From NCBI RefSeq assembly GCF_017571475.1, contig NZ_JAGETW010000002.1, positions 186,001-250,000 on the forward strand: a stretch of 64,000 nt of DNA. The letters are read 5' to 3'. The notes below the pieces were generated by a model. The model was not told the origin of the DNA, ran no database searches, and worked only from the letters and a program-made list of their open reading frames with translations. The stretch comes from Thiomicrorhabdus sp. 6S3-12 (lineage in GTDB: Bacteria; Pseudomonadota; Gammaproteobacteria; Thiomicrospirales; Thiomicrospiraceae). Both the position numbers and the translations under genes were made by a program. Shown piece by piece: positions 10,101-50,528 of this stretch. Numbering within the stretch: position 1 is the first letter of the stretch; each line of letters starts with the position of its first letter.

Positions 10101-11372
10101 TTAGAAGCTGGAAGATAACCAGTTTTTGAAACGACGGAATCGGTCGGTTGTTCTTTCCAGAAAACTTTCGTGGTCTTCAACGGTGAATTCGTAGCCGGGA
10201 TGATCCAGATCGAAATTCTGCTGCGCATACAGTAACAGACCGATTGCCGTCGAAAGTTCGGAGTGGTTGATCTCGTTGACCAGACCACCGCTCAGGTAAT
10301 CGCTTTTCGGCAAACCGATGCGCACCGGCATATCAAAAATTTCTTCCGCCAAAGGCACGCTGCCGAAAATCATTGAGGAACCGCCGGTAATCACGATTCC
10401 GGCGCCGAACATCTCCTTGGAAAAGCCGTCTTGCTTAAGACGCGCTTCGACGCTTTCATAAATCTCTTCCATACGCGGACGAATCACTTCGGACAACAGG
10501 CGCTGACTTAAGGCAAAAGGCTCGCGTTCGCCGACGCGCTGAACGTCGAATTTGAAATCTTCCTTAATCAGGCTCGGCATGGCGCAGCCGTACTGAACTT
10601 TGATTTTTTCCGCCGAGTCGGTCGGGGTGTTGAAAGCGATGGCCACATCGTTGGTGACATAGTTACCGGCAATCGGCAGAACCGCCGTATATTGCATAGA
10701 GCCATTGCGATAAACCGTAATATCCGTGGTTCCGCCACCAATATCGACGACACAGACGCCCAGCTCTTTTTCGTCTTCGCTGAGAACCGCTTCACTGGCC
10801 GCTAACTGCGCCAGTACCGGCGTACTGTCGTGCAGTCCGGCGGAATGGACGCATTTTTCGATATTACGTACCGCGCTCTGGCTGGCGGTAATAATGTGCG
10901 TTTTGACCTCAAGGCGCTTGCCGGCCATACCGACCGGTTCAAGAATGCCTTCCTGCATATCCAGGGTGAATTCCTGCGGCAGAACATGCAGCATACGCTC
11001 TTCGGACGGCGAATATTTACCGGCATGCGCCTGATCGGTCACGCGCTGAACATCTTCCGGCGAAACTTCGTTATTAATGGTCACGACACCGTGCGAGTTG
11101 ATGCTCTTGATGTGGCCGCCGGTAATCCCAATATAAGCGGAATCCACTTCACAACCAGCAAAATCTTCGGCTTCTTCAATCGCGGTTTTAATCGAGCGTT
11201 TGGTTTCCTCGATATTAATCACCACACCGTTTCGCAGTCCTTTAGTCGGAACAATACTGTATCCGCGAACTTCAATCTGGCCTGGAGAAAGTTCCCCGAT
11301 CACCGCCTTGATTTTTGAGGTTCCGATATCTAAACCGACAATAATATTTGGACTACTTTGCATGTTCGCCAT
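10101..11372 (-). CDS. ftsA: Cell division protein FtsA
   Basis: 423 residues. Actin-like ATPase that tethers FtsZ to the inner membrane and recruits the late divisome. Phosphate-1 motif GLDIGTSKIKAVIG, the phosphate-2 motif VVDIGGGTTDI, and GAGIVITGGSSMI mark the actin fold; the 1C subdomain region carries the SHVEEF-type segment. The last residues (FRRFKNWLSSSF) form the amphipathic membrane helix. The open frame starts at a GTG (11381), but GGAG followed by 8 bases favours the ATG at 11372. It follows ftsQ by 77 bases. The next gene should be ftsZ but is not; ftsZ lies about 36 kb away in the proximal dcw block. Confidence 0.97.
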   Translation of the reverse strand: MANMQSSPNIIVGLDIGTSKIKAVIGELSPGQIEVRGYSIVPTKGLRNGVVINIEETKRSIKTAIEEAEDFAGCEVDSAYIGITGGHIKSINSHGVVTINNEVSPEDVQRVTDQAHAGKYSPSEERMLHVLPQEFTLDMQEGILEPVGMAGKRLEVKTHIITASQSAVRNIEKCVHSAGLHDSTPVLAQLAASEAVLSEDEKELGVCVVDIGGGTTDITVYRNGSMQYTAVLPIAGNYVTNDVAIAFNTPTDSAEKIKVQYGCAMPSLIKEDFKFDVQRVGEREPFALSQRLLSEVIRPRMEEIYESVEARLKQDGFSKEMFGAGIVITGGSSMIFGSVPLAEEIFDMPVRIGLPKSDYLSGGLVNEINHSELSTAIGLLLYAQQNFDLDHPGYEFTVEDHESFLERTTDRFRRFKNWLSSSF

Positions 11373-11449
11373 CCGTGCCACTCCACCCTGCTTTAAGCTT
11401 AAGGTCTAATCTTTCTAATGTTTATATTTCTTTTGTTATTTCGCCATGG

Positions 11450-12211
11450 TTACGGTGTTTTCTTACCGACCACAAAACCATTACTATAGCGTAAATCAAA
11501 GGTCTCTGCGGATTTTATCAGGTCTTGCGATAATTGCTTATAGGCCTGAAAAAAGAGACGCAGTTTACGCTGCCACTGCTCGTCTTCCAGTATCACGCTC
11601 TGACCGCCAGCCAGGTAGATCTGCCAGATTTTGCCCGGTTTGTACGCCAGGCCGACCAGTGCCAGATTATGTTTCTGAAACAGTTCGTTAATTTCGACCC
11701 AGCGCTGCAATACCAACTGGCTGGAATCAAGACTGCCGTCAAGAACTACAAGATCCCGATAGCCTTCGATACTGTAAGGGAAAAACACCTGCCCCTGATG
11801 ATTAATCAAACCGTTTTCGCCCCAACGGGCAACCGGTTTCTGCTCGAACACCTGAACATCCAACTTATCCGGCCAGATCCGGCTGACTTCGGCTTTAACC
11901 ACCCAGTCAAGCTGTGTCAGACGCCCCTGAATCTCGTCGATCGGCACGTCCCAGAAAGAGACACCCAGATAACTTTTTAAAACCCGGTCAATGTCTTCCG
12001 GCCGAACTTCATTCAACTGCGATTGCACCTGATACGAACTGATGCCTTTGGAAAACCAGTGATCTCCGCCTTTATTCGGCAGCATTAACCAGGCACTGAA
12101 GACCAGAGCCAGCGCCGTAACCAGAAGCCAGAAAGCAACCTTGGGTAACTTGGACGGCTCCGCGCCCTGACCTGTTCTTCCCTGCTCGACTTCGGCTTGT
12201 TCTGGAATCAT
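11450..12211 (-). CDS. ftsQ: Cell division protein FtsQ
   Basis: 253 residues. Bitopic inner-membrane scaffold joining early and late divisome proteins (FtsBL, FtsK). Short cytoplasmic tail, one transmembrane helix (about 25-45), a POTRA domain with the NEVRPEDIDRVL...SFWDVPIDEIQGRLTQLDWVVKAEVSRIWPD pattern, then the beta domain with VFEQKPVARWGENGLIN. It lies between ddl (28 bases upstream) and ftsA, the classical order, and is probably translated from an operon starting at or before murC. The AAGGG SD is rather far (about 12 bases) from the ATG. Confidence 0.95.
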   Translation of the reverse strand: MIPEQAEVEQGRTGQGAEPSKLPKVAFWLLVTALALVFSAWLMLPNKGGDHWFSKGISSYQVQSQLNEVRPEDIDRVLKSYLGVSFWDVPIDEIQGRLTQLDWVVKAEVSRIWPDKLDVQVFEQKPVARWGENGLINHQGQVFFPYSIEGYRDLVVLDGSLDSSQLVLQRWVEINELFQKHNLALVGLAYKPGKIWQIYLAGGQSVILEDEQWQRKLRLFFQAYKQLSQDLIKSAETFDLRYSNGFVVGKKTP

Positions 12212-37073: not shown

Positions 37074-38165
37074 CTATTTCAATCGTTGCAACAACTCGGC
37101 GGTAATCTTCTCGCGCGCCTGCCGTGCGGCCTCGTTGCGAATTCTTGCCGAAGCGGCGGCACGTTTATCGCCTTGCGCACACCATGGCTGCAAAGCGGCC
37201 AGCAGAGTGTCGGCGGTCAACGCGCTCTGAGGAATGATCTGACCACCGCCAAGATTTACTAACGCCTGAGCATTCGCCGTTTGATGATCATCCACGGCAT
37301 GCGGATAAGGCACCATAATCGCCGGACGTGCGACGGCCATCAATTCGCTGACGGTCAGTGCACCGGAACGACAGACCAGCATGGTCGCATTGCGGTAGGC
37401 CTGTTGCATATCGTCGATAAAAGGCACTATCTGCACATTGACCCCGGCGTCCTGATACGCCTTTTGCGCTTCGGCGAGTGTTTTCTCACCGGTCTGATGC
37501 AAGACTTCAGGGCGCTGTGATTCCGGCAGTTTGGCCAGAGCCAGAGGCACCGTCAGATTCAATGCCTGAGCGCCGCGACTGCCGCCTAATACCAGTAACC
37601 GGCATGGTTCACCCTCCTTCAGCGTTTCAATCTGCTCCAGACCTTCGCGCACCGGATTTCCGAAGAGTTTACAATTCGCCTTGGCGGAAAACTGCTTCGG
37701 ACTGTCTGCTGCCACCGGAAACGCCAGCATGACCAGGTCTGCAATCTTGGCCAGCAAACGATTGGTCAACCCGGGAATCGCATTCTGCTCATGCAGAACC
37801 AAGGGAATCTTCAAACTTTTTGCCGCCAGTCCTCCAGGGCCGCAGACGAAACCACCCATCCCCAGAACCAGATCCGGCTTTTGCTGTTGCATGATTTTTT
37901 TCGCCTGACGGTACGCTTTCCAGACATTCAACGGCGCTTTAATCCATCCGAGAAGCCCGTTACCGCGCAGCCCGCGGATCTGAATCTGGGAAAACGGAAT
38001 TCCGGCATTGTCGACCCAGTTTTTCTCCATGCCGCCGGCCGTTCCCAACCAGTGAACCTGCACCTCATGCTTCTGCAATTCATGTGCAATGGCAATACCG
38101 GGAAAGACATGCCCGCCGGTTCCGCCGGCCATTACCATGATTTTTTTTCTCTTTTCTGAACTCAT
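37074..38165 (-). CDS. murG: UDP-GlcNAc:lipid I N-acetylglucosaminyltransferase
   Basis: 363 residues. Peripheral GT-B enzyme on the inner face of the membrane that converts lipid I to lipid II. VMAGGTGGHVFPGIAIA (first glycine loop), the second-domain LVLGGSRGAQALN, the VCRSGALTVSELMAV donor-site helix, and PYPHAVDDHQTANA are typical. It normally sits inside the dcw operon after ftsW, and does so here too, but a strong terminator separates the two. It probably relies on its own promoter in the 50 bases after that terminator, or on read-through. Confidence 0.97.
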   Translation of the reverse strand: MSSEKRKKIMVMAGGTGGHVFPGIAIAHELQKHEVQVHWLGTAGGMEKNWVDNAGIPFSQIQIRGLRGNGLLGWIKAPLNVWKAYRQAKKIMQQQKPDLVLGMGGFVCGPGGLAAKSLKIPLVLHEQNAIPGLTNRLLAKIADLVMLAFPVAADSPKQFSAKANCKLFGNPVREGLEQIETLKEGEPCRLLVLGGSRGAQALNLTVPLALAKLPESQRPEVLHQTGEKTLAEAQKAYQDAGVNVQIVPFIDDMQQAYRNATMLVCRSGALTVSELMAVARPAIMVPYPHAVDDHQTANAQALVNLGGGQIIPQSALTADTLLAALQPWCAQGDKRAAASARIRNEAARQAREKITAELLQRLK

Positions 38166-38216
38166 TGTTCGCTTCTTGAATACTCTTTGAAATGGCTCAA
38201 TTTAAACAGATCGTAC

Positions 38217-38248
38217 ACAAAAAAGCCAAGCGCCTGAACGCTTGGCTT
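38217..38248 (-). terminator. Rho-independent terminator between ftsW and murG
   Basis: On the minus strand a perfect 10-bp stem (AAGCCAAGCG/CGCTTGGCTT, 6-base loop) is followed by T-rich sequence (TTTTTTGTG with the stem end). It lies 20 bases past the ftsW stop and splits the dcw transcript. Confidence 0.92.
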
Positions 38249-38267
38249 ATAGGGTGAGCAAACGGCA

Positions 38268-39518
38268 TTAAGCAGTTCTCGTTTTCGGCTCTCTGCGTAC
38301 TTTGCGCGTTTTCTTGGCTGCTTTTTCGGCTTTCTTTTCTTCAGCCTCTGCCGCAAATTCCTGATCGGTTTTCAGGTCGTAGTCATCACTGTTTTTCGGA
38401 TCCGGATAGAAACGCGAGACATGCTCAACTTTCAACACCAGCGCAAACGCGATCAAAAACAGAATCATACTACTGCCGCCGTAACTGAACAGCGGCAGCG
38501 TCAAGCCTTTGGTCGGAATCACTCCGAGGTTGGCGCCCATATTGATCCCGACCTGCAGAACAAACCAGAAACTGACCCCATAGACATACAGTGCGCCAAA
38601 ATTGTAATTCGCCTGTTTGGCCTGATAGGCGATGCGGAACAGACGATAGATCACTGCCAGATAAAGCACCACCAGCCCGAGAACACCGAGAAAACCAAAT
38701 TCCTCGGCAAAGATCGAGAAGATAAAGTCGGTATGCGCATCCGGCAGATAAAGCATTTTCTGCACGCTGTTGCCCAGTCCGACGCCGGTCCAGCCTCCGG
38801 AGCCTTGCGCCAGTATCGCCTGGATCAGCTGATAACCGGTGCCGTACGGATCCTGCCAGGGATCGAAAAAAGAGGTCAATCGCGCGATTCGATAAGGTTC
38901 AAGCAGCAGCAATGCCGCCAGAATACCGATCATCGGAATAATGGTGTAGACGAAGAAACGATAAGGTGCGCCCGATATCAGCAGCATGCCGACAATAATC
39001 ATGGTGATAACCATGACGCTCCCGAAATCCGGTTCCAGAATCAGTAACAGCGCCATAAACCCGAAAGGCAGCGCCAGTCGCAGCACCGCGGTAAAACTTT
39101 CGGAAACTTCGCTCTTGTGCAAAGTCAGATACGCGGCCATAAAGACAATGACCGAAAACTTCATCAACTCCGAAGGTTGGAAATTAAACACTCCCAGCGG
39201 CAGCCAGCGTTTGGAACCGTTGATCTCCATTCCTACAATCAGTACCGCCACCAGCAACAACAGACTGAGCAGAAGCAGTCCGCCCCGCCGGTGAATCCAG
39301 GTCGAGAGCGGAATCTGATAGACGACATAGGCCGCCACCAACCCCAGTCCCAAGGCGATGGTTTGGCGAATGACAAAGAAAAATTCATTCGCATAACGTT
39401 CTTCAGCGTAGGCGATCGATGCGGAAAACAGCATAACCAAGCCGATAAAGACCACCGTTCCCAGCAGTCCGACCAATGTCAGGTCGATCTTAGGCTGATT
39501 GCTTTGTGCTCTCTGCAT
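38268..39518 (-). CDS. ftsW: Septal peptidoglycan glycosyltransferase FtsW
   Basis: 416 residues from the ATG at 39518, picked because GGAGG lies 9 bases upstream; the open frame to 39593 would add 25 residues and run into murD. SEDS-family polymerase with about ten membrane helices that works with FtsI at the septum. FSASIAYAE near the first helix, the catalytic-region KRWLPLGVFNFQPSELMKF, and the C-terminal GVIPTKGLTLPLFSYGGSSM are classical. The basic C-terminal tail (about 55 residues, Lys/Arg/Glu-rich, many Lys-Ala repeats) is cytoplasmic and longer than a minimal FtsW. Confidence 0.97.
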   Translation of the reverse strand: MQRAQSNQPKIDLTLVGLLGTVVFIGLVMLFSASIAYAEERYANEFFFVIRQTIALGLGLVAAYVVYQIPLSTWIHRRGGLLLLSLLLLVAVLIVGMEINGSKRWLPLGVFNFQPSELMKFSVIVFMAAYLTLHKSEVSESFTAVLRLALPFGFMALLLILEPDFGSVMVITMIIVGMLLISGAPYRFFVYTIIPMIGILAALLLLEPYRIARLTSFFDPWQDPYGTGYQLIQAILAQGSGGWTGVGLGNSVQKMLYLPDAHTDFIFSIFAEEFGFLGVLGLVVLYLAVIYRLFRIAYQAKQANYNFGALYVYGVSFWFVLQVGINMGANLGVIPTKGLTLPLFSYGGSSMILFLIAFALVLKVEHVSRFYPDPKNSDDYDLKTDQEFAAEAEEKKAEKAAKKTRKVRREPKTRTA

Positions 39519-39549
39519 GGCCATACGCCTCCATATCAAACTAATCGGA

Positions 39550-40926
39550 TTATAGGTTCTGAGCGTTCTCGACAGCTGTCGAATGAGGAACACTGCTCAT
39601 GGCAAACTGTTCTTTGACAATACGCTTGAAGACTTCCCCCCTTTCGACATAATTCGAAAACTGGTCAAAGCTGGCGCAGGCCGGTGAAAACAGTACGCAG
39701 TCGCCGCTTTCGACCAGTCCGGCGGCAAGCGAGACCGCATCCGCAAGCGTTTCAACCTGCTTGATCTGATCAAAACCGTTCTGTAAAAGCGCCTGTTCGA
39801 TAATGCCGCGATCGCGTCCGAAGAGAATCACCGCCGAACAGTAGGCTTGAACCGCTTCGGTCAGAGGCGAAAAATCGGCATCCTTACTGACGCCTCCGGC
39901 CAGCAGAATAATCCGCCCGTCGATTTCGGCGCCAAACGTCTCAAGCGCGGTCAGGGTTGCGCCGACATTGGTTCCTTTGGAATCGTTGATCCATTGAACG
40001 CCGTTAACTTCAGCAACCAGCTGTGTGCGGTGCGGCAGACCGGCAAAATTCGTCAGCACCTGCGAAAAAACCTGTTTAGAAATCTGAAAAGGTTCGCACA
40101 ACGCCATCATCGCCAGAGCGTTAAGCTGATGATGCTTACCTTTCAGCAGCATTTCAGCGGTATTGATTAAAGGCTCCTCCCCCTTGGCAAGGAATCTTTG
40201 GTTATCCATCTCAATAATTCCGTAATCGCGACTGCTCTGCGGGACACCCGGTCCAAAACGCACGATTCGGTCTTTCATCGAAGTCAGATCTTTGAGATCC
40301 GTTGGTAAAACCGCCAGCTCAGTATCGGAAAAGATTTTGTATTTGGCATGAACATAGGCAGCAAGATCATCATAGCGATCCATATGATCTTCGCTGATAT
40401 TCAGAACCGTCGCGGAAATACAGTGCAGGGAATAGGTTGTTTCCAGCTGAAAACTCGACAGCTCCAGAACATAAATTTCATATTCGACATCGTCAAGCAG
40501 CGCATCCAGCGCCGGCAGCCCGATATTACCCGCCACGGAGACCTCGAAACCGGCTGTCCGCAACACTTCGCCGATCAGGGTGGTCACCGTACTTTTACCG
40601 TTCGATCCGGTAATGGCAATCACCGGCACGCCGACAGCCCGTGCAAAAAGTTCGATATCACCAATTACTTCCACACCATTGGCAACCAGCTCCTGCACCC
40701 AGGGCTCACGCACGGCAATCCCCGGACTCAATACCAGCGTTTTGATCTGTGCACGCCATTTTACAGGCAGCTCTCCGGTCGCGAACGGCACCTCGGGAAA
40801 CTGTTCCTGAAGCGCCGAACAATCGAAATCAACGCGCGTATCGAAGGCACAGCAAGCTTCTTTCTGCACCTGCAAAAAGCGTAATACCGACTGACCTGTA
40901 ACCCCTAAACCGGCGACTAAAATCAT
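39550..40926 (-). CDS. murD: UDP-N-acetylmuramoyl-L-alanine--D-glutamate ligase
   Basis: 458 residues. Adds D-Glu in the cytoplasm. GLGVTGQSVLRFL at the N-terminus, ATP loop GSNGKSTVTTL, LELSSFQLE and NISEDHMDRY in the middle, the carbamylated-lysine region and NDSKGTNVGAT, and the C-terminal GGVSKDADF are all present. It begins 14 bases after mraY and ends 31 bases before ftsW. Confidence 0.97.
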   Translation of the reverse strand: MILVAGLGVTGQSVLRFLQVQKEACCAFDTRVDFDCSALQEQFPEVPFATGELPVKWRAQIKTLVLSPGIAVREPWVQELVANGVEVIGDIELFARAVGVPVIAITGSNGKSTVTTLIGEVLRTAGFEVSVAGNIGLPALDALLDDVEYEIYVLELSSFQLETTYSLHCISATVLNISEDHMDRYDDLAAYVHAKYKIFSDTELAVLPTDLKDLTSMKDRIVRFGPGVPQSSRDYGIIEMDNQRFLAKGEEPLINTAEMLLKGKHHQLNALAMMALCEPFQISKQVFSQVLTNFAGLPHRTQLVAEVNGVQWINDSKGTNVGATLTALETFGAEIDGRIILLAGGVSKDADFSPLTEAVQAYCSAVILFGRDRGIIEQALLQNGFDQIKQVETLADAVSLAAGLVESGDCVLFSPACASFDQFSNYVERGEVFKRIVKEQFAMSSVPHSTAVENAQNL

Positions 40927-40940
40927 CTAATGCTATTCCT

Positions 40941-42023
40941 TTATCGAATTTTCAGCGAGGCCAAACCGACCAGTACCAGAATAATCGTGACAATCCAGAA
41001 ACGGACAATGACAGTCGACTCGTGCCACCCTTTCTGCTCAAAATGATGGTGCAGCGGCGCCATCAGGAAAATTCTTTTTCCACGCAACTTATAGGAACCG
41101 ACCTGTAAAATCACCGACAGGGTTTCAGCGACAAACACACCGCCCATAATAACCAGCACCAGTTCCTGCTTGACTGCGATCGCCATGACGCCCAGCGCCG
41201 CACCGATTGACAGTGAGCCGACGTCCCCCATAAAAACCTGAGCCGGGTGTGCGTTATACCAGAGAAAACCTAGTCCAGCACCAACCAGAGCGGCGGCAAA
41301 AATGGTAATTTCACTGACGCCGGGAATGTAAGGGATATTCAGATAATTGGAAAATACCGAGTTGCCGGAAAGATACGCGAAAACACCTAAAGCGCCCGAA
41401 ATCATCACCGTCGGCATAATCGCCAAACCATCAAGACCATCAGTCAGGTTAACCGCATTCGAGGTTCCAACAATCACGAAATAACTGAGCAGAATGCTCC
41501 AGGCGCCCAAATGGATTACCGTATCTTTCATATACGGGATCAGCAGATCAGTTTCGGCCGGCACCGTTGCCATCGCAAACAACGCATAAGCGGCGATAAA
41601 GCCGATCAACGATTGCAGCAGATATTTTTGCTTGGCACTCATTCCTTTCGGATCGCGGTACACGACTTTCTTATAGTCATCGATAAAGCCGATCACACCG
41701 AATGCCAGCATGGTCAAAGTCACAATCAGCAGGTAATGGTTAGTCAGGTCACCCCACAGAATCACGGAAACCGCAACCGAAAACAGAATCATGGTTCCGC
41801 CCATGGTCGGCGTCCCTTTTTTGACCAGATGGGTCTGAGGGCCGTCACTGCGAATCGCCTGACCGACCTTGAGGCGTGTCAACCAGCGAATCATTCCCGG
41901 GCCGATAATGAATGACAACAGCAACGCGGTGAGCACACTCATAATGGTGCGCATCGTGATGTAGCTGAATACGGCAAAACCGGAAATATACTGTTGCAGA
42001 TATTCGGTTAGATAAACTAGCAT
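40941..42023 (-). CDS. mraY: Phospho-N-acetylmuramoyl-pentapeptide transferase
   Basis: 360 residues, ten membrane helices. Makes lipid I from UDP-MurNAc-pentapeptide and undecaprenyl phosphate. GTPTMGG, the metal-binding [19 protein letters not shown], and the C-terminal [14 protein letters not shown] histidine loop are intact. A 9-bp GC-rich hairpin occupies the 67 bases between murF and this gene. Confidence 0.97.
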
Positions 42024-42055
42024 TCGAAAACTCTTTTAATATATTGATATCTTTC

Positions 42056-42082
42056 GCCTTCCCGCTTATCCCTCGGGAAGGC
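42056..42082 (-). other. Intercistronic hairpin between murF and mraY
   Basis: GCCTTCCCG and CGGGAAGGC pair perfectly (9 bp) around a 9-base loop. The following minus-strand sequence (GAAAGAT) lacks a U-tract, so processing, pausing or protection of a transcript end is more likely than plain termination. Confidence 0.65.
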
Positions 42083-42090
42083 CTGTACTC

Positions 42091-43593
42091 TTAACCCCAG
42101 CTTTGCTGTACGGCGCAGGCGATCGTTTCCATCCGGGAACTGCGCGATCCCTTAACAAGAATGTTGATTTGCGGACACACTTCGTCCTCGACAAACCATT
42201 TATTCACGAGTTCGTTGAGGCTTCTGCTCAGGCTGTCATGTTCAAGAAAAGCGGCGCTGAAGATCTGCGGAATGCGCGGCGAGGCATGTATATTAGCCGC
42301 AAAAATCCGAGGCATATCCTGTGCCGCTTCACCATAAACCAACAGAGCGTCAAGACCGATATGGGCCGCATATTCGGCCACTTCCTGATGCGCTTGAACA
42401 CTATAGTCGCCCAGTTCCCCCATCGCCCCGATACAGGCGATATGACAGCCTGGAAGCGTCATCAAAGCGCTTAATCCGGCCTTGATTGATTCCGGGTTGG
42501 CATTATAACTGTCATCCAGTAAATAACCGCAACGAATTTGTGTTTTTTGCAAACGCCCCGGCACGCCGCCGTACGCCTCAATCGCGGCTTTAACCGCATC
42601 CCATGCCACGCCCGCCCACAGAGCCAGCAGAGTGCAGGCAGCAGCATTAGCTGCGTGGTGTTCGCCAAGAACCGGCATACGAACGCTATCCGAAAAACGA
42701 CTGCCATCGGCAAGCTCGGCGGTTAGCACAAATTCGATTCCATGATTATGTGTGGCGACTTCGCCGAAAGTGACATTCGGCAGTGTGACCGTTTCCTGAG
42801 AAGCTCTGGCAAACAGGCCGACCTTGCCGATTCCGAGTGCGGAACATTTTTTCAGCCAGTCCTCAAGCCCGGCCGAGTCATGGTTGAAAATCGCAACACC
42901 TTCACGCGGATCCAATCCTTCGACAATCTCGCCTTTGGTGTCGATAACCCCTTGTAAACTGCCGAATCCTTCAAGATGCGCACCGGCAGCATTGGTAATC
43001 AACGTCATATCCGGTTTGGCAATTTCGGTCAGATAACGAATCTCGCCCGGATGGTTAGCACCCATTTCGATAATCGCATATTCATCCTCCGGGCGGAGCT
43101 GCAGCAGTGTCCGCGGCACCCCGAAGTCATTATTGAGATTCCCCTGCGTCGCCAGCGTTTTGCCTGCTTTAGAGAAGATTTCCGCCAACAGGGTTTTATT
43201 GCTGGTTTTACCGTTGCTCCCGGTAATCGCAATCAGTTTTTTCAAAGGCATCTGCTGGCGGTGCCAGCGAGCAAAAGCGGCCAGAGCCAGACGCGTGTCC
43301 GCAACCAAAATGACTGCCGGCTGCTGGTCCTCTTGAAGCTCATCGGCCAGCGTCTGCCAAGCCTCTTCCTGCGAGATCAGAATCACCGCTGCCTGAGCGT
43401 CCACCACCTGCTGCAAAAAATGATGCGCGTCAAAGCGCTGGCCGCAGATAGCGATAAACAGACTCTTCTGCGTCACCTCACGCGAATCGGTAACCACTTC
43501 GCAAAAACGTCTAGTTCCGGCTTGCGGGTTCAGCCTTTTTCCTTCAACCGCACTCTGTAACTGTGCGTCAGTCCAAAAAAAATCCTGTTGCAA
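42091..43593 (-). CDS. murF: UDP-N-acetylmuramoyl-tripeptide--D-alanyl-D-alanine ligase
   Basis: 500 residues, slightly long. Adds the D-Ala-D-Ala made by Ddl. The N-terminal binding domain has VVTDSREVTQKSLFIAI; ATP loop GSNGKTSNKTL; then NLNNDFGVPRTLL, IIEMGANHPGEI, LLDDSYNANPESIKAGL and the IGAMGELGDYS block. The ATP loop shows Asn where many MurF have Thr (KTSNK against KTTxK), seen directly. It begins 9 bases after murE. Confidence 0.96.
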   Translation of the reverse strand: MQQDFFWTDAQLQSAVEGKRLNPQAGTRRFCEVVTDSREVTQKSLFIAICGQRFDAHHFLQQVVDAQAAVILISQEEAWQTLADELQEDQQPAVILVADTRLALAAFARWHRQQMPLKKLIAITGSNGKTSNKTLLAEIFSKAGKTLATQGNLNNDFGVPRTLLQLRPEDEYAIIEMGANHPGEIRYLTEIAKPDMTLITNAAGAHLEGFGSLQGVIDTKGEIVEGLDPREGVAIFNHDSAGLEDWLKKCSALGIGKVGLFARASQETVTLPNVTFGEVATHNHGIEFVLTAELADGSRFSDSVRMPVLGEHHAANAAACTLLALWAGVAWDAVKAAIEAYGGVPGRLQKTQIRCGYLLDDSYNANPESIKAGLSALMTLPGCHIACIGAMGELGDYSVQAHQEVAEYAAHIGLDALLVYGEAAQDMPRIFAANIHASPRIPQIFSAAFLEHDSLSRSLNELVNKWFVEDEVCPQINILVKGSRSSRMETIACAVQQSWG

Positions 43594-43602
43594 AATTTAC
43601 CC

Positions 43603-45255
43603 TTACACCTTATTGGTCAATGATTCGTCGGCAAACCACTTTCTGACCACGCTTGCATCATGAAACGGATAGCGTTTGCCGGCTATTTCCTGATAGTCCT
43701 CATGCCCTTTTCCGGCGATGACGACCAGATTGTTTTCCCGCTGTTCACCACTAGCCTGCTGTAAAGCCACCTCTATAGCCTGTTGTCGATCGACGATCAC
43801 TTCGACGTCCTGTGGCGACTGCATACCCTTCAGCACCTGCTCGATAATCTTTTCCGGTTCCTCGTTACGAGGGTTATCCGAAGTCACGATTACCTTATCC
43901 GCAAAGCGTTCGGCAACCGCGCCCATTAACGGACGTTTTTTTTGGTCGCGGTCTCCGCCGCAACCGAATACCACCCAAACCCGTCCTTCATGAACGCTTT
44001 TATCAATATAAAACGGATCTTTCTGTGCATCACTTGCCTCCTGTTGATGCTGTCGAACCGACTCAAGCAGTTTTTCCAAGGCATCATGAGTATGAGCAAA
44101 ATCGACCACAACGGTAGGACGCTGGTGAACAATCTGCATCCGTCCCTCCACCGATTCGACGGTTCTGGCCGCTTCAACCACTTCATCCGGCTCAAAACCG
44201 TTGGCCATTACGCAACTGAGTGCACAAAGCAGGTTTTCGGCATTGAAAGCGCCGAGCAAAGGCACATGAATCGGCAGCTTGCGTTGTGCATGCAACAAGA
44301 TAAATGTCATTCCTTGCGGTGTGAGCTGCAAATCAATGCCAAGATTGACACACAGGTTGAGCCACTCTTTCGGCTGCACCTCGTCCTCCAGCTCAGCGTG
44401 TTTCAGCTGGTAGCCCCAGAAAACGCAATCGTGCTGTCTAATGCAGTACGGATGACTGCGGTTCACCAGAGATTGGCCGACCGCATCGTTCAGGTTCAAT
44501 ATTTTGTGCTCGGCCGGAAAATCATGAAACAGCTTTACTTTAGCCGCCTCGTAGGCTTCCTGAGAACCGTGAAAATCGAGATGATCGCTGCTGACCTGAG
44601 TCAGTGCCAAGGTCGCGAACCGCACCTTATCAATCCGCCCGAGTTCAATCGCATGCGAGCTGACTTCCATCACCACATAATGCACACCCTGGGCAACAAA
44701 CTGCGCCAGAAGTCGATGCACTTGAAGCACATCGGGAGTGGTATTCCGCCCTTTATGCAGCTGACCGAAAACCCCGTATCCCAAAGTGCCGATCACACCG
44801 ACTTTGACATCCAGGCTTTGTAGCATCTGTGCGCAATAAAATGCTGTCGAGGTTTTACCATTGGTACCGGTAACGCCGATCACCCTAAGCTTGGAACTCG
44901 GAGAGTCATAAAACCAGTCCGCCAATCCGGCCAGTTCGTCTTTTAAAGCGGCGCAGTAGATAAAGTCTACCTGCAACTGCGCGCACAGCTGGCGCTCGGA
45001 TTCCGACGGCAGACGGTCTGCCAGAACAACGGCAGCCCCTTTTTCGACCACCTGAGGCAGATAATCAAGCCCGTGACTGCGCTGTCCCTGTACGGCGACA
45101 AAAACCGTCCCCCTTTCAACCTGACGGGAATCGTTGGTAAGGGAACGCAACTCAAGTGTCTGTCCCGCTTTCGAAACATCCTCGTGAGAATGAATAAACT
45201 GCTCCAGCGACATCTTGCGCTGGAGATAAACGCTCAATTCGCCGAGGGACTTCAC
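43603..45255 (-). CDS. murE: UDP-N-acetylmuramoylalanyl-D-glutamate--2,6-diaminopimelate ligase
   Basis: 550 residues, longer than the E. coli enzyme (495) through inserts, one of which lies around residues 395-410 (RQHQQEASDAQKDPFYIDKSV region). ATP loop GVTGTNGKTSTAFY; YVVMEVSSHAIELGR; substrate-specificity motif SDNPRNEEP, which marks meso-diaminopimelate use; late motif VIAGKGHEDYQ. The GTG start shares its first base with the TAG stop of ftsI (coupled translation); an ATG 14 codons later (MSLEQF) is possible. Confidence 0.95.
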   Translation of the reverse strand: MKSLGELSVYLQRKMSLEQFIHSHEDVSKAGQTLELRSLTNDSRQVERGTVFVAVQGQRSHGLDYLPQVVEKGAAVVLADRLPSESERQLCAQLQVDFIYCAALKDELAGLADWFYDSPSSKLRVIGVTGTNGKTSTAFYCAQMLQSLDVKVGVIGTLGYGVFGQLHKGRNTTPDVLQVHRLLAQFVAQGVHYVVMEVSSHAIELGRIDKVRFATLALTQVSSDHLDFHGSQEAYEAAKVKLFHDFPAEHKILNLNDAVGQSLVNRSHPYCIRQHDCVFWGYQLKHAELEDEVQPKEWLNLCVNLGIDLQLTPQGMTFILLHAQRKLPIHVPLLGAFNAENLLCALSCVMANGFEPDEVVEAARTVESVEGRMQIVHQRPTVVVDFAHTHDALEKLLESVRQHQQEASDAQKDPFYIDKSVHEGRVWVVFGCGGDRDQKKRPLMGAVAERFADKVIVTSDNPRNEEPEKIIEQVLKGMQSPQDVEVIVDRQQAIEVALQQASGEQRENNLVVIAGKGHEDYQEIAGKRYPFHDASVVRKWFADESLTNKV

Positions 45256-47261
45256 TACATCCCCCCCCGGGCAATCTGTCCGGCAAAACGCGGATCGGAA
45301 GCCGGCAATGGCAGATTCGGCAATTCCTGCCAGTCCGGTTTCACCTTACGCAAACGCAAAGCATTCTGCATGACTTCCTTGAAAACCGGGGCTGCTACCA
45401 AACCGCCGTAATACTTGCCGCGCGAAGGTTCGTTGACCGCGACAACCATTACCATATCCGGATCGGAAGCCGGAACCATACCGGCAAAAAGTGAAAGATA
45501 GGTATTGTCTTCATAGCCCCCTTCACGGGAAACCTTGTGCGACGTTCCGGTTTTACCGGCAACCTGATACCCCGGAATCATGGCCAGAGGCGCTGTGCCG
45601 CCGGGCGCAACCACCTTATTCATCATATCCAGAACTTTCTGGCTCGCCTGCGGACTGAATATAGGCGTTGAAGCAGGAACCTCGTTTTCGCCCATTTTAA
45701 ACAGCTGCGCTTCCAACATTCGTCCCTGATTGGCGAAAACCGTATAGGCTCGCGCCAGGGTCAGCAGGTTCACACTCAAACCGTAACCGTACGATGTTGT
45801 CGCCTGATCGATCTCGCTCCATAGAGAAACATCTTTCAGGCGCCCCGCTGTCTCGCCCGGCAGATAGGTATGCGTTCCCTCTTTGAATCCGAGCTGTTTG
45901 AACAGATCGTACTGTACTTCCGCCGGCATACGAAAAGCGATCTTGGCCGTTCCGACGTTACTGGATTTCTGAATAATTTCTTCCGGCGTCAGTACACCGT
46001 GGCGTGAGGTATCTTTAATCAACTTGCCCTGAACGCGCATAAAACCTCGACCGGTATCGATCTCGGATTGCAGATCAACCACCCCTTCGTCGAGCGCTTT
46101 GGCAATCACGAACGGTTTCATGGTTGATCCCGGTTCCAGCACGTCGGCGACAACACGATTTCGAATACCCGGGCCTCTGCGCTGCGCCGTGTCATTTACG
46201 TTAAAACTCGGCAGACTGGCCATTGCCAGAACCTCACCGGTTTTGGCATCTAAGACCACCGCACTGGCGCTCTTCGGCTGATGCTTATACATCACCTGTT
46301 TCAGCGCTTTATAGGTCAAATACTGAATATTCTGATCAATACTCAACACTAGAGGATTGCCGTCCTGCTCCTGCTTTTTTGTTTTCAGCAGATTAATGAC
46401 ATTACCTTTAACGTCCTTAACGACAATTTTTTTGCCGCTGCGGCCGCTCAGGTGTTTGTTGTAAGCCAACTCAATGCCTTCGATCCCCTTACCGTCGACA
46501 TTCGTGTAACCGAGCAGATTGGCCATGCTTTCGCCGTTCGGGTAATAGCGTTTATATTCGGTACTGACATACACATGCGGCAGGCGAAGCGCTTCAATCT
46601 TGTCTCTGAAATCCGGCGTCAGACTGCGTTTAACATACATGTGGCGGCGTTTCTGATTGGCATAGGCGCGCTTGCGCAGCTCAGTGGCCGAAATTCCCAA
46701 AACCTTTGCCAGACGGTCAAAGGTATAGATAATGCGATCCAGTTCTTTCTCGTTGATCCACAGAGAGTGATACTCTTTTTTTACCGAAACTTGTCGCTGC
46801 AGACCTTGATACTCGGATACGTAGCTGTGCTCGGTCTTTTTGATATGAACGCCGGGCAAGGAAAGCTGTTCGATTTTCTCTTTAAGCTCAGGGGTTTTGA
46901 TATAGCGGATAAAGCTTAGATTACGATCACGGTTCTCGCGCGCCCGTTGCAGAAGCTGATTGTTCTTCAGCCCGATAAGCTGTAAAAACTCGTGATAATT
47001 GGCTTCATTTTTAACGATCTGCTTCGGATCCAGTTCCACCGCGACCATCGGCGTGCTCATTGCCAGCAGGTTGCCGTTTCGGTCGTAAATCTGACCGCGG
47101 ACACCGGGAACGTTATAGCTGCGGATATGCCGGTCGTCAGCCTTCTCCTGATATTCGTCCGCTTTGACGATTTGGGTAATGAAAGCTTTGGCGACCAGAG
47201 CCGACATCATCATCACGATAAGAAAAAAGATCACAATTTCCCGGTTTAGAAATCTATTCAC
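45255..47261 (-). CDS. ftsI: Septal transpeptidase FtsI (PBP3) with a duplicated pedestal segment
   Basis: 668 residues against 588 in E. coli. Class B penicillin-binding protein that crosslinks septal peptidoglycan with FtsW. Start: the frame is open to 47351, but AAGGA 8 bases before the GTG at 47261 gives an 8-base overlap with ftsL instead of 98. One membrane helix follows a short tail. GVRGQIYDRNG begins the dimer/pedestal domain. Catalytic S379 lies in EPGSTMKP, SSN in IQKSSNVG, and KTG in VAGKTGTS. Two ungapped, same-length segments (95-148 and 187-240) resemble each other, 16 of 54 identical by hand count, and only the second matches the single copy I recall in E. coli. Confidence 0.95.
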   Translation of the reverse strand: MNRFLNREIVIFFLIVMMMSALVAKAFITQIVKADEYQEKADDRHIRSYNVPGVRGQIYDRNGNLLAMSTPMVAVELDPKQIVKNEANYHEFLQLIGLKNNQLLQRARENRDRNLSFIRYIKTPELKEKIEQLSLPGVHIKKTEHSYVSEYQGLQRQVSVKKEYHSLWINEKELDRIIYTFDRLAKVLGISATELRKRAYANQKRRHMYVKRSLTPDFRDKIEALRLPHVYVSTEYKRYYPNGESMANLLGYTNVDGKGIEGIELAYNKHLSGRSGKKIVVKDVKGNVINLLKTKKQEQDGNPLVLSIDQNIQYLTYKALKQVMYKHQPKSASAVVLDAKTGEVLAMASLPSFNVNDTAQRRGPGIRNRVVADVLEPGSTMKPFVIAKALDEGVVDLQSEIDTGRGFMRVQGKLIKDTSRHGVLTPEEIIQKSSNVGTAKIAFRMPAEVQYDLFKQLGFKEGTHTYLPGETAGRLKDVSLWSEIDQATTSYGYGLSVNLLTLARAYTVFANQGRMLEAQLFKMGENEVPASTPIFSPQASQKVLDMMNKVVAPGGTAPLAMIPGYQVAGKTGTSHKVSREGGYEDNTYLSLFAGMVPASDPDMVMVVAVNEPSRGKYYGGLVAAPVFKEVMQNALRLRKVKPDWQELPNLPLPASDPRFAGQIARGGM

Positions 47262-47583
47262 TATCCATTTCCTTATCGACAATATAGACCGTCTGCTTCT
47301 GCTTCTGGCTACTGACCATCTTGAGTTCTTCTTTAGCGATGCGTTCGACATTGGCCGGTGAAGTCAGATGCATTTTTTCCAGCATCAACTCCCCCCACTC
47401 GTGCCGCGCCGCCACAAGTTGGTCGACATTTTTGTAATACTCTTTTTGAATGCCTCTGATCTGATGCGACAAATAGATATTGCCGAACAGCAAAGCAAAC
47501 AAAAACAGGACTAAAAAAATCAATAAAAAAAGCCCACCAGACTTTGAATAACTCAAGTTTGCGGGCTTCGACGATTGAGACAT
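47254..47583 (-). CDS. ftsL: Cell division protein FtsL
   Basis: 109 residues. Start at 47583 after a perfect AGGAGG SD 5 bases away; the open frame to 47607 is unlikely. Short polar N-tail, one transmembrane helix (about 19-40: GLFLLIFLVLFLFALLFGNIYL), then a leucine-zipper-like coiled coil and the conserved ERIAKEELKMV near the end. It bridges FtsQ and FtsB to FtsWI. It lies just after a terminator-like hairpin that follows ftsZ. Small and poorly conserved, but position and topology make the call safe. Confidence 0.9.
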   Translation of the reverse strand: MSQSSKPANLSYSKSGGLFLLIFLVLFLFALLFGNIYLSHQIRGIQKEYYKNVDQLVAARHEWGELMLEKMHLTSPANVERIAKEELKMVSSQKQKQTVYIVDKEMDSE

Positions 47584-47598
47584 CAATCCTCCTAAAGA

Positions 47599-47630
47599 CC
47601 CGACCAAGCAGACAGAGGAACTTGGCCGGG
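47599..47630 (-). terminator. Attenuator-like hairpin between ftsZ and ftsL
   Basis: On the minus strand CCCGGCCAAG pairs with CTTGGTCGGG (10 bp, one G-U) across a 12-base loop, followed by a short TCTTT. It sits between the ftsZ stop and the ftsL SD. The short U-tract suggests partial rather than full termination. Confidence 0.65.
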
Positions 47631-47649
47631 CGGGATTTACAGCAGTTTT

Positions 47650-49044
47650 TTAATCTTTCTGGCGGCGTAGGAAAGCCGGAATATCCAACAGATCACGTTT
47701 ACCGTATTTATCGTTTACCAGACTGGCCATCGTTGTTTGTGCGGCCGCCTGAGTTTCGACATCCTGCATCGTCATGGCACCGCTCTGAGGTTGAGCAACA
47801 CCTGCCTGAGCATTAAAATTCTCGGCTGACATCTGGACCGGCTGGGCAGCTGGCGCAGCTTCCTGAACTGGTTGCTGAACCGCCTGCGGAGCCTGTTGCG
47901 CGGAATAGTTCATTTCAGATGAACTCTGGTGCATAGTGTAATTCGGCTGCTGATGAGACGGTTGAGCAGGTGCTGTCTGTTCCTGAGTCGCTTGAGTAGA
48001 ATACTGCACAGACTGCTGCATCTGATTTACCGCACTATTAAGCCCCATATTGCGAACCTGCTGTGGTTGCGGAGCAGTATCTTCGCGACGCGACAGACCT
48101 GTCGCAACGACAGTAACACGAATTTCGTCATTCATGCTCTCGTCCAGAGAGTTACCGATAATGACTTTGGCATCCGGAGCCGCAACCTGATCGATTACGT
48201 CACCGACCGCATTGAATTCGCTGATTGTCAGATTCGGACCACTCGTTACATTAATCAGAATTCCTTTGGCGCCAGAGACTTCGATATCGTCAAGCAGAGG
48301 GTGAGCAATCGCTTTTTTGGTTGCCTTGATCGCACGATCGTCACCGGTCGCATAACCGACACCCATCAACGCCATTCCGCGCTCGGACATAACGGTACGC
48401 AAATCTTCAAAGTCAACGTTAATCAGACCAGGACGAGTAACCAGCTCGGTAATCCCCTGCACGGCACTCAACAGGATTTCGTTGGCATAGTTGAAAGCGT
48501 TGCTTAGCGTAAAGTCATCGCCAACGATTTCCTGCAACTTATCGTTAGGAATCGTAATCAGAGAATCGACATGCTGAGTCAGTTCATCAATACCCGCCTG
48601 AGCTGCCGCACCGCGACGCTCGTATGAAAACGGCTTACTGACAACACCGACGACCAGAATACCCATTTCACGCGCAAGCTGTGCCACAACCGGAGCGGAA
48701 CCGGTACCGGTACCACCACCCATACCGGCAGCCAAGAACAACATATCCGCACCTTCGATTTCGCCTTTAATCGCTTCCATCGAATCTCTGGTTGCCATGC
48801 GACCCTTTTCCGGATCAGCACCGGCACCTAAACCTTTCTCACCCAGCTGGATACGGTTCTGAACACGGGAATGCGCCAAAGCCTGCGCATCGGTATTGGC
48901 GACAATAAAGTCGACACCTTCGATGGTATTTTCCATCATAAAGTTAACGGCATTACCGCCACCGCCGCCAAGGCCGATGACCTTGATTACCGGCATGCCG
49001 GCTTCGCGAATATCGCTTGCTGCATCATCTGAAATGAATTTCAT
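47650..49044 (-). CDS. ftsZ: Cell division GTPase FtsZ, at an atypical place in the dcw cluster
   Basis: 464 residues (E. coli 383). Tubulin-like GTPase that forms the Z ring. KVIGLGGGGGNAV at 21-33, the GGGTGTGS signature at 109-116 and the T7 loop NVDFEDL at 209-215 are intact. The extra length is a Gln/Ala/Pro-rich linker from about 318 to 450. The tail LLDIPAFLRRQ (452-462) is the binding site for FtsA and ZipA. GAGGAT precedes the ATG. It lies 57 bases after rsmH and before ftsL, where no ftsZ is expected, and is missing from the normal place after ftsA. No second copy is in the window. Confidence 0.97.
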   Translation of the reverse strand: MKFISDDAASDIREAGMPVIKVIGLGGGGGNAVNFMMENTIEGVDFIVANTDAQALAHSRVQNRIQLGEKGLGAGADPEKGRMATRDSMEAIKGEIEGADMLFLAAGMGGGTGTGSAPVVAQLAREMGILVVGVVSKPFSYERRGAAAQAGIDELTQHVDSLITIPNDKLQEIVGDDFTLSNAFNYANEILLSAVQGITELVTRPGLINVDFEDLRTVMSERGMALMGVGYATGDDRAIKATKKAIAHPLLDDIEVSGAKGILINVTSGPNLTISEFNAVGDVIDQVAAPDAKVIIGNSLDESMNDEIRVTVVATGLSRREDTAPQPQQVRNMGLNSAVNQMQQSVQYSTQATQEQTAPAQPSHQQPNYTMHQSSSEMNYSAQQAPQAVQQPVQEAAPAAQPVQMSAENFNAQAGVAQPQSGAMTMQDVETQAAAQTTMASLVNDKYGKRDLLDIPAFLRRQKD

Positions 49045-49101
49045 GTCTCTATCCTCTGTCTTTCTGAAACTTTTTTACTGCGTTTTGTAATCCAATTACT
49101 T

Positions 49102-50040
49102 TTACTGTGTAAGCCTTTCCGCGATTCTTAGGACCGCGCTGCGCGACCGGGCATTCAACTCACACTCATCCTTGCTGGGAAAAATCGGCTTACCGATTCT
49201 TTTTAACACCGGTTCAATTACCTCTATTTGCACCGGTGAGTCCGGGAAAAGATCCCGAATTTTTGACTGGTCGCGGATAAACACCTTGGCGATCCGATCC
49301 TCCAAAGAATGGAAACTGATCACGGCCAGTCGGCCACCTGGAGCGAGAACATCCAGAGAGCCTTGTAATACATTTTTCAATACATCCAGTTCGCGGTTAA
49401 CGGCAATACGGATTGCCTGAAAAGTTCGCGTTGCAGGATGTTTGTTTTTTTCTTTTTTCGGTAGCACCCGCTCAACGACTTCAGCCAGATCTTTCGTGGT
49501 ATTCAGCTCTCCGGCATCGGCTGCTTCTTTTATGACTCTGGCGACCCGTCCGGAAAACCGCTCTTCGCCGTAATTCTGCAAGACCAGCTTCAGCGTTTTC
49601 TCGTCAACCTCTTGCAACCACTCTTTTGCACTGACCCCTTCCTGCGGATTCATCCGCATATCCAGAGGCCCTTCACGCATAAAACTGAAACCGCGCTGCG
49701 CATCGTCAAGTTGCGGCGAGGACACGCCCAGATCCATCAAAACACCATCTACCTTACCCAGCAGATCGCGCTGCCGGCAGTAAGCGTCCAAATGTTCGAA
49801 ACTGCCATGAATAATTTCAAACCGCGGGTCCTGAAAATGCTCATGCGCATAGGCGACGGCCTGCGGATCCTGATCGATCGCGTAAAGCTTACCGTTTTCT
49901 CCCAGACGATCCAAAATCGCCCGAGAGTGCCCGCCTCTCCCGAAGGTACAATCGAAATAGATACCGTCCGGTTTAATATTGAGAGCATCAATGGATTCTT
50001 GTAAAAGAACGGAAAAATGCTGGTTAAAATTTTCACTCAT
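49102..50040 (-). CDS. rsmH: 16S rRNA m4C1402 methyltransferase RsmH (MraW)
   Basis: 312 residues. Methylates N4 of C1402 in the ribosomal P site; RsmI, also in this window, methylates the 2'-O of the same base. HFSVLLQESIDAL, the SAM motif YFDCTFGRGGHSRAIL, DGVLMDLGVSSPQLDD, RGFSFMREGPLDMRM and AVISFHSLEDRIAK are classical. Second gene of the cluster, 32 bases after mraZ, as usual. Confidence 0.97.
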   Translation of the reverse strand: MSENFNQHFSVLLQESIDALNIKPDGIYFDCTFGRGGHSRAILDRLGENGKLYAIDQDPQAVAYAHEHFQDPRFEIIHGSFEHLDAYCRQRDLLGKVDGVLMDLGVSSPQLDDAQRGFSFMREGPLDMRMNPQEGVSAKEWLQEVDEKTLKLVLQNYGEERFSGRVARVIKEAADAGELNTTKDLAEVVERVLPKKEKNKHPATRTFQAIRIAVNRELDVLKNVLQGSLDVLAPGGRLAVISFHSLEDRIAKVFIRDQSKIRDLFPDSPVQIEVIEPVLKRIGKPIFPSKDECELNARSRSAVLRIAERLTQ

Positions 50041-50072
50041 GGGATGGATCGCTTCTTTTAAATCAGCATTTA

Positions 50073-50528
50073 TTAAAAACTCAGGTCGCCAAGCAGTTCG
50101 GACATCTCTTCCAGATCAATCTCTTCCAGAATGTCATCACAGGTCGCATCCCAAGCCGCTCTATCCCAAAGTTCGAATTTCTTGCCCTGACCGACCAGCG
50201 TCGATTCCTTAGCGATTTCCGCATAACCGAGCTGTTCTTTGGTGACCAGAATGCGCCCCTGACCATCCATGACCTGCTCAACCGCGCGACCAACGAAGAT
50301 TCTCTGTAACGCGCGTACGGATTTGGACGAGTTCGGCAGCGCCATAATTTTGTCTTCAACCGCGCGCCATTCCTGATATGGATAGAGCGCCAGACACTTT
50401 GCATTCAGGTCCAGGGCAATAATTAGGGTCGACTTGTGTTCTTCCACCAAGTATTCACGGAATTTTTTCGGAATTGCGATCCGCCCTTTGGCATCAACGC
50501 TCAAATTGTAATTTCCGCGAAAAAACAC
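50073..50528 (-). CDS. mraZ: Transcriptional regulator MraZ
   Basis: 151 residues, GTG start; MFFRGNYNLSVDAKGRIAIPKKFRE is the first AbrB-like swapped-hairpin half, and FVGRAVEQVMDGQGRILVTKEQL the second. Ring-forming DNA-binding protein that represses its own dcw promoter in E. coli by binding TGGGN repeats spaced by 5 bases. Three such boxes lie at 50535-50560, right before this gene and partly over its ribosome-binding region. First gene of the proximal dcw block. Confidence 0.96.
   Translation of the reverse strand: MFFRGNYNLSVDAKGRIAIPKKFREYLVEEHKSTLIIALDLNAKCLALYPYQEWRAVEDKIMALPNSSKSVRALQRIFVGRAVEQVMDGQGRILVTKEQLGYAEIAKESTLVGQGKKFELWDRAAWDATCDDILEEIDLEEMSELLGDLSF

Follow-up and report, generated by a model that had tools for sequence, protein, structure and literature searches.

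Does FtsI (penicillin-binding protein 3, PBP3) of the sulfur-oxidising bacterium Thiomicrorhabdus sp. 6S3-12 carry the head of its pedestal domain twice, and what might a second head do there? The question is raised by the ftsI gene in a 64,000-nucleotide stretch of that genome (contig NZ_JAGETW010000002.1, positions 186,001 to 250,000; hereafter the window), for which an earlier note, made from the sequence alone, had claimed a tandem duplication in the FtsI pedestal. The duplication was borne out by significant self-similarity and by a relation of the added segment to the PBP3 head in both profile and fold. In the predicted structure the protein contains an entire FtsI of the usual kind with ~94 residues over, which make up one added head. 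On balance we lean towards the view that the added head, a tandem duplicate dating from the Thiomicrorhabdus ancestor, is kept under constraint and gives an FtsI of otherwise normal build a new docking surface on its side.

The protein is readily recognized as FtsI. Both expected Pfam domains are present, PF00905 (Transpeptidase; E 2.6e-71, 240.7 bits against a cut-off of 22.1) and PF03717 (PBP_dimer, the pedestal; E 7.5e-25 over two stretches, 88.8 bits against a cut-off of 24.4), and the catalytic-motif residues S409, K412, S463, S464, N465, K600 and T603 are invariant columns in an alignment of 45 FtsI sequences. The NCBIfam subfamily model PRK15105 scored 429.4 bits (E 2.2e-128), under its curated cut-off of 737 bits, and no other model in the NCBIfam scan reached its cut-off either; by sequence the protein is classed under the broad FtsI/class B penicillin-binding protein family, outside PRK15105. 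Translation from GTG 47261 gives 668 residues, while an in-frame ATG upstream at 47351 would give 698. The shorter protein is likelier, because the ATG lies inside ftsL and two relatives (L004, L005) start at the GTG position. Residue numbers below follow the 698-residue version unless stated; subtracting 30 gives the 668-residue numbering of the earlier note.

The similarity first noticed, 16 identities in 54 residues between segments 95–148 and 187–240 (668 numbering), was reproduced exactly. Its offset of 92 stands; its extent does not, as the duplicated unit is ~92 residues long and takes in the pedestal's complete head subdomain (E. coli PBP3 88–165), not just 54 residues. In 668 numbering head 1 is 73–148 and head 2 is 165–240. 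When 54-residue segments were paired without gaps at a spacing of 60 residues or more, the top 25 listed all fell at offset 92, with BLOSUM62 scores from 83 down to 63, while the best pair with an offset outside 85–99 scores 21. Smith-Waterman alignment of the copy 1 region with the copy 2 region scores 86 against a maximum of 59 in 5000 shuffles (Gumbel p ~2e-7). A single profile-to-profile comparison (hhalign) of copy 1 with copy 2, built on 31 aligned relatives, gives E 1.5e-15. Repeat scores, shuffles and this profile comparison together rule out chance similarity of the two segments.

Both copies are related to the heads of ordinary FtsI. Against a profile of single heads from other genera, hhalign gave E 1.2e-22 for copy 1 and 2.3e-36 for copy 2, and a model built of 36 single heads (L048 and L049 were dropped, the pattern not being found) matched every copy-1 sequence, 31 in all, at E<1e-3 when only these were searched. 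In a PDB search with a copy-1-only profile the leading hits were FtsI of E. coli, Y. pestis and P. aeruginosa, at 3.7e-10 (E. coli 4bjp_A) to 1.3e-9; MrdA came later, at 5e-5, and the isolated E. coli PBP3 88–165 domain (4bjq_A) matched at 3.9e-4.

AlphaFold2 was run on the alignment of 45 FtsI (31 doubled, 14 single), which left out L041, L042, L045, L049 and the later loci L161–L180. The model has a mean predicted local distance difference test score (pLDDT) of 87, with 10-residue means of 87–95 over residues 81–270. In copy 1 it predicts a strand at 95–107, helices at 109–126 and 130–139, a strand at 145–151, a helix at 154–163 and strands at 168–171 and 175–181. The elements of copy 2 are strands at 184–190 and 195–199, helices at 201–208, 210–218 and 222–231, a strand at 238–244, a helix at 247–255 and a strand at 260–269. 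Both copies have their elements in the same order, the one difference being a break in the first helix of copy 2. The whole model aligns over residues 73–677 with 511 of the 513 residues of P. aeruginosa PBP3 (4kqo_A; Z 62.5, root mean square deviation 2.6), leaving ~94 model residues over.

Because that alignment also held single-head FtsIs, copy 1 was in addition folded separately from copy-1 sequences alone. The best PDB match of this model is E. coli PBP3 V88–S165 (4BJQ; Foldseek E 0.048, probability 0.99). Structure comparison likewise places 4bjq_A at rank 1 (Z 7.1, 75 residues, root mean square deviation 4.2), with penicillin-binding proteins in 49 of the best 50 rows listed. An unrelated fold of the first segment, which would have spoken against a duplication, is thus ruled out by the element order, the copy-1 profile and the matches of copy 1 folded alone; as modelled, the segment is a PBP3 head.

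The doubled head was found throughout the genus. A profile of the doubled region matches 31 of the 32 Thiomicrorhabdus genomes at full length (30 over 1–207, one over 2–207), and both copies are present in every one of the 31 FtsI found, with no stop inside the match in any. In the remaining genome (G008) FtsI, murE and ftsZ are all not found in the assembly, which makes an assembly gap likelier than loss of the doubled FtsI; the empty search alone shows nothing. Outside the genus, copy 1 was found in none of the 29 FtsI-matching genomes among 30 from the family's other six genera, and at E<=1e-35 31 of 62 family genomes match, all in the window's genus. A search of the order came back with 62 genomes, as many as the family had given, and therefore covered no wider ground. 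In the class sample 334 of 369 genomes match at E<=1e-10, and among the matches listed, in order of E-value, the window's own genome is the one that covers both copies (E 4e-91; next 3.6e-32); in the phylum sample that genome alone, one of 398, passes E<=1e-35. The class and phylum searches used the profile of this genus's head pair, with E<=1e-35 for phylum and order, and could miss an independent, diverged double head in other lineages. In a scan of the best 80 of 533 relatives, 79 loci gave an FtsI open reading frame (ORF), with two head matches in six, all members of the window's genus, and one in 73.

A tree of the heads (75 columns, 16 of the 31 genus members, midpoint root) gathered the copy-1 sequences in a single clade with support of 100/100, set off by a long branch that measures 1.27 on the copy-1 side of the root, and left copy 2 among the single heads without a settled position. 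In a tree of the transpeptidase domain, which took eight of the 13 loci of other families, the doubled FtsI form one clade (SH-aLRT, a Shimodaira–Hasegawa-like approximate likelihood ratio test, 93 in a quick search) and require one change. Most simply, then, the head was duplicated in tandem, once, in the ancestor of Thiomicrorhabdus; the single origin is argued by parsimony. Tandem duplication is favoured because the outer ends of the two copies keep complementary ancestral FtsI sites. The D-P/A-K/E (DPK-type) site is present in copy 1 of 31 out of 31 and in copy 2 of one out of 31, and the KRYYP-type strand in copy 2 of all 31 and in copy 1 of none.

Copy 1 has since been maintained. In the six of ten close pairs with a finite synonymous rate its ratio of nonsynonymous to synonymous substitution (dN/dS) is ~0.02–0.10, which indicates strong purifying selection on its coding sequence. 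Mean pairwise identity is 0.52 for copy 1, 0.49 for copy 2 and 0.67 for the transpeptidase part.

What has been kept and what has been released around the copies suggests how the doubled unit is built in. For P. aeruginosa FtsI the available text of PMC7614612 gives L64, P72–P78 and F151–P156 as those FtsL contacts that it attributes mainly to the head. These align here to residues 87, 95–101 and 266–271, on strands at two rims of the head. The strand ahead of copy 1 reads LLALSTP or close in 31 genus members and that behind copy 2 reads YKRYYP or close, again in 31; the equivalent inner strands between the copies (174–179, 187–193) are without those sequences. Judged by these motifs, the outer rims of the doubled unit still resemble one ordinary head and the inner rims have been freed. 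Contact of the outer strands with FtsL would follow by analogy with P. aeruginosa. The earlier note had assigned the duplicated piece to a region contacting FtsQLB and FtsN. This is too wide: the rim strands face FtsL in P. aeruginosa and may do so here, whereas for FtsN affinity tests with E. coli 88–165 gave no sign of binding, which dimerisation of the domain may have masked (PMC4038516). Since only the outermost strand pair keeps its sequence, the extra copy is not, by that measure, a second FtsL site.

FtsL itself has not changed in length. From a conserved Arg to a WG-type motif it spans 19 residues in all 28 parsed sequences of the genus (of 31; L002 was mis-extracted, L029 gave no ORF, L031 fell outside the pattern, and L001 was entered by hand), in 23 of 24 parsed from other genera of the family (of 25; one at 22), and in six of six parsed from other families (of 13). 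The long helix of FtsL interacts with the pedestal in the P. aeruginosa complex (PMC10764723). The FtsL sequences parsed thus give no sign of a coil lengthened to suit a longer pedestal. With FtsL length kept, the contact distance from membrane to transpeptidase probably did not grow, and the catalytic domain is probably not lifted by the added head.

We therefore somewhat prefer, as said above, the docking reading. Sequence and distribution show that the head was duplicated in tandem, most simply once, in the Thiomicrorhabdus ancestor, and the model shows that a full ordinary FtsI was retained; by sequence the outermost rim strands, which would face FtsL as in P. aeruginosa, were kept and the inner ones released. 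Because FtsL kept its length, the extra head would sit beside or on the normal head. It would offer a putative docking surface, probably for a divisome protein or another FtsI, and docking may tune the assembly or activation of FtsWI rather than replace the FtsL contact.

Several points weigh against this. When copy 1 is folded by itself, the quality of the model is middling (pLDDT 76.5). Foldseek gave it no PDB match at E<=0.001, from the third row down PBP3 is interspersed with unrelated chains (E 0.86 or worse), and the Z of 7.1 is under the level the comparison tool calls secure. The head tree has just 75 columns and its bootstrap had not settled; rooted at the midpoint, it leaves copy 1 as the outgroup of all other heads, and the tree alone gives grouping, not source. 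How the two heads are arranged relative to each other is inferred, and the percent identities of the structural alignments, predicted at 39.2–41.5% for different arrangements and reported as 40 and 41%, do not tell which copy occupies the canonical head site. A purely structural role would also agree with the purifying selection.

Such a role is the best-surviving alternative, although we think it improbable: copy 1, constrained by folding alone, would be a spacer that adjusts the tilt or reach of the pedestal without binding anything. The few invariant residues of head 1 (D, Y, S, F, L, G) might be core positions, and other lineages place unrelated inserts at the same site. Yet copy 1 is as conserved as copy 2, more than filler seems to need, and a longer pedestal would be unexpected where FtsL, tied to both pedestal and transpeptidase domain in P. 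aeruginosa, has kept its length.

Improbable too, at about the level of the spacer, is a more novel reading, in which Thiomicrorhabdus FtsI works as a septal synthase with two heads. One of them, the second, would then serve solely to receive a signal for activation or recruitment that reaches the enzyme differently in other gammaproteobacteria. The FtsL contact and that of a putative head partner, two inputs that usually share a single head, would be split between the two.

Less likely again is that the tandem heads form a covalent pair that mimics the swapped dimer of E. coli 88–165 and stabilises or replaces FtsI–FtsI contacts. In the crystal that domain is a dimer whose partners swap 18 N-terminal residues, and in solution it is mainly dimeric, according to the available part of PMC4038516; the first strand equivalent to the swapped one lies within the duplicated unit, and a strand is there in both copies. 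However, the authors of that report, in the same part, judged swapping in full-length PBP3 unlikely, and in the alignment from the copy-1 profile search most copy-1 members carry Leu at the position of the E. coli Phe that stacks on Trp92.

Little remains for the idea of a neutral relic, an accidental duplication tolerated without function. The long branch of copy 1 (1.27) would suit it, but not its retention in 31 of 31 FtsI of the genus with dN/dS of ~0.02–0.10 and no stops inside the match. Least credible of all is acquisition of copy 1 by recombination from another class B penicillin-binding protein such as PBP2/MrdA, since copy 1, though well apart from copy 2 and all single heads on the tree, has a profile that prefers FtsI (3.7e-10) over MrdA (5e-5), is scored by a genus-excluding single-head FtsI model above what a copy-2 model gives, and shares with copy 2 the complementary ancestral end sites that tandem duplication leaves.

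FtsB shows no evident change of length, its PF04977 match (61 of 62 genomes) taking in much the same part of the model inside the genus as outside it. FtsA was found in all nine genomes checked and FtsQ in eight of nine (missed in G032); SPOR proteins occur in 62 of 62, FtsN among them not being singled out. The presence of FtsA, FtsQ and SPOR proteins in these genomes speaks against loss of divisome partners as the cause of the doubling. In E. coli the FtsI mutations that activate or block FtsWI lie, as given in the available text of PMC8078798, at residues 57–62 and 210–211, on the pedestal face towards extracellular loop 4 of FtsW; these are outside 88–165, the duplicated unit, and the basic FtsW switch should thus be unchanged. 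The 88–165 head of E. coli PBP3 is thought to serve protein-protein contacts. The available sections of PMC4038516 report affinity tests that detected no binding of it to PBP1b, FtsN or FtsW, add that its dimerisation may have hidden binding, and describe the subdomain as poorly ordered in several crystals.

Compared with FtsI of E. coli and P. aeruginosa, the protein is alike in adjoining ftsL, in its transmembrane helix and pedestal, in a transpeptidase domain with STMK, SSN and KTGT motifs, and in 40–42% identity over the aligned structures; it differs by one extra head subdomain of ~92 residues in the pedestal. The best fold match of copy 1, E. coli PBP3 88–165 (PDB 4BJQ), is single there, and two such units stand in each chain here. 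FtsI is already known and the doubled head is the new feature: titles and abstract openings in the open-licence PMC literature, a scope that leaves subscription journals outside, gave no report of a duplicated FtsI head.

Other lineages have enlarged the same subdomain in their own ways, but without resemblance to a second head. Class B penicillin-binding proteins of subclass B5 carry a 60-residue four-helix insert in the head, as described in the available part of PMC4038516. FtsI of two other genera of the family and of Pseudoalteromonas (loci L032, L034, L161–L170, L059 and L064) has an unrelated, perhaps helical insert of ~22–36 residues directly after the VDPK/ADPK head strand; those of these FtsI that were in the scan of 80 loci each gave one head match. 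The regulatory part of the pair formed by a SEDS (shape, elongation, division and sporulation) protein and a class B penicillin-binding protein therefore tolerates enlargement at one defined site, where others insert unrelated pieces. An extra head is a natural experiment on this poorly understood domain, and a two-headed clade makes its function testable by removing or swapping one head.

Table 1. Features of ftsI and ftsL in the window (window coordinates; residues in 698-residue numbering unless stated).
Feature	Coordinates	Strand	Description
ftsI (PBP3)	45255..47261	-	668 residues from GTG 47261; Pfam Transpeptidase and PBP_dimer; P. aeruginosa PBP3 4kqo_A, Z 62.5
Transpeptidase domain, residues 363–662	45366..46265	-	PF00905; STMK, SSN, KTGT motifs
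Head copy 2, residues 195–270	46542..46769	-	Nearest single-head FtsI; ancestral KRYYP-type strand kept
Two strands joining the heads, residues 175–190	46782..46829	-	By position the two rim strands, diverged; DSSP strands 175–181 and 184–190
Head copy 1, residues 103–178	46818..47045	-	More diverged copy; ancestral DPK-type site kept
Transmembrane helix region, residues 37–62	47166..47243	-	AlphaFold2 helix 37–62
ftsL	47254..47607	-	PF04999, E 3.6e-12

The features are collected in Table 1. By analogy with FtsI in general, the predicted helix 37–62 would be the membrane anchor. The gene order ftsL-ftsI-murE is present in a division and cell wall cluster, ftsL being assigned by PF04999; we take murE to be the gene at 43603–45255, and it and the rest of the cluster were presumptively named from their translations. 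The cluster is split, with a main block at 37074–50528 (minus strand) and ftsQ and ftsA matches ~25 kb away at 10227–11830 (minus strand). The main block presumably runs mraZ-rsmH-ftsZ-ftsL-ftsI-murE-murF-mraY-murD-ftsW-murG, most of these names again being our assumption. The sole ftsZ match of the genome, at 47650–49044 (minus strand), thus stands at the front of the cluster, flanked by rsmH and ftsL, and not after ftsA; ftsZ adjoins ftsI in most genomes of the family, as judged by eye from match coordinates. The probable MrdA/PBP2 of the same genome (G000 contig C11, 11689–12897) has an open frame of 628 residues, about the usual length of that protein, and the enlargement therefore seems confined to the division enzyme, not its elongation counterpart.

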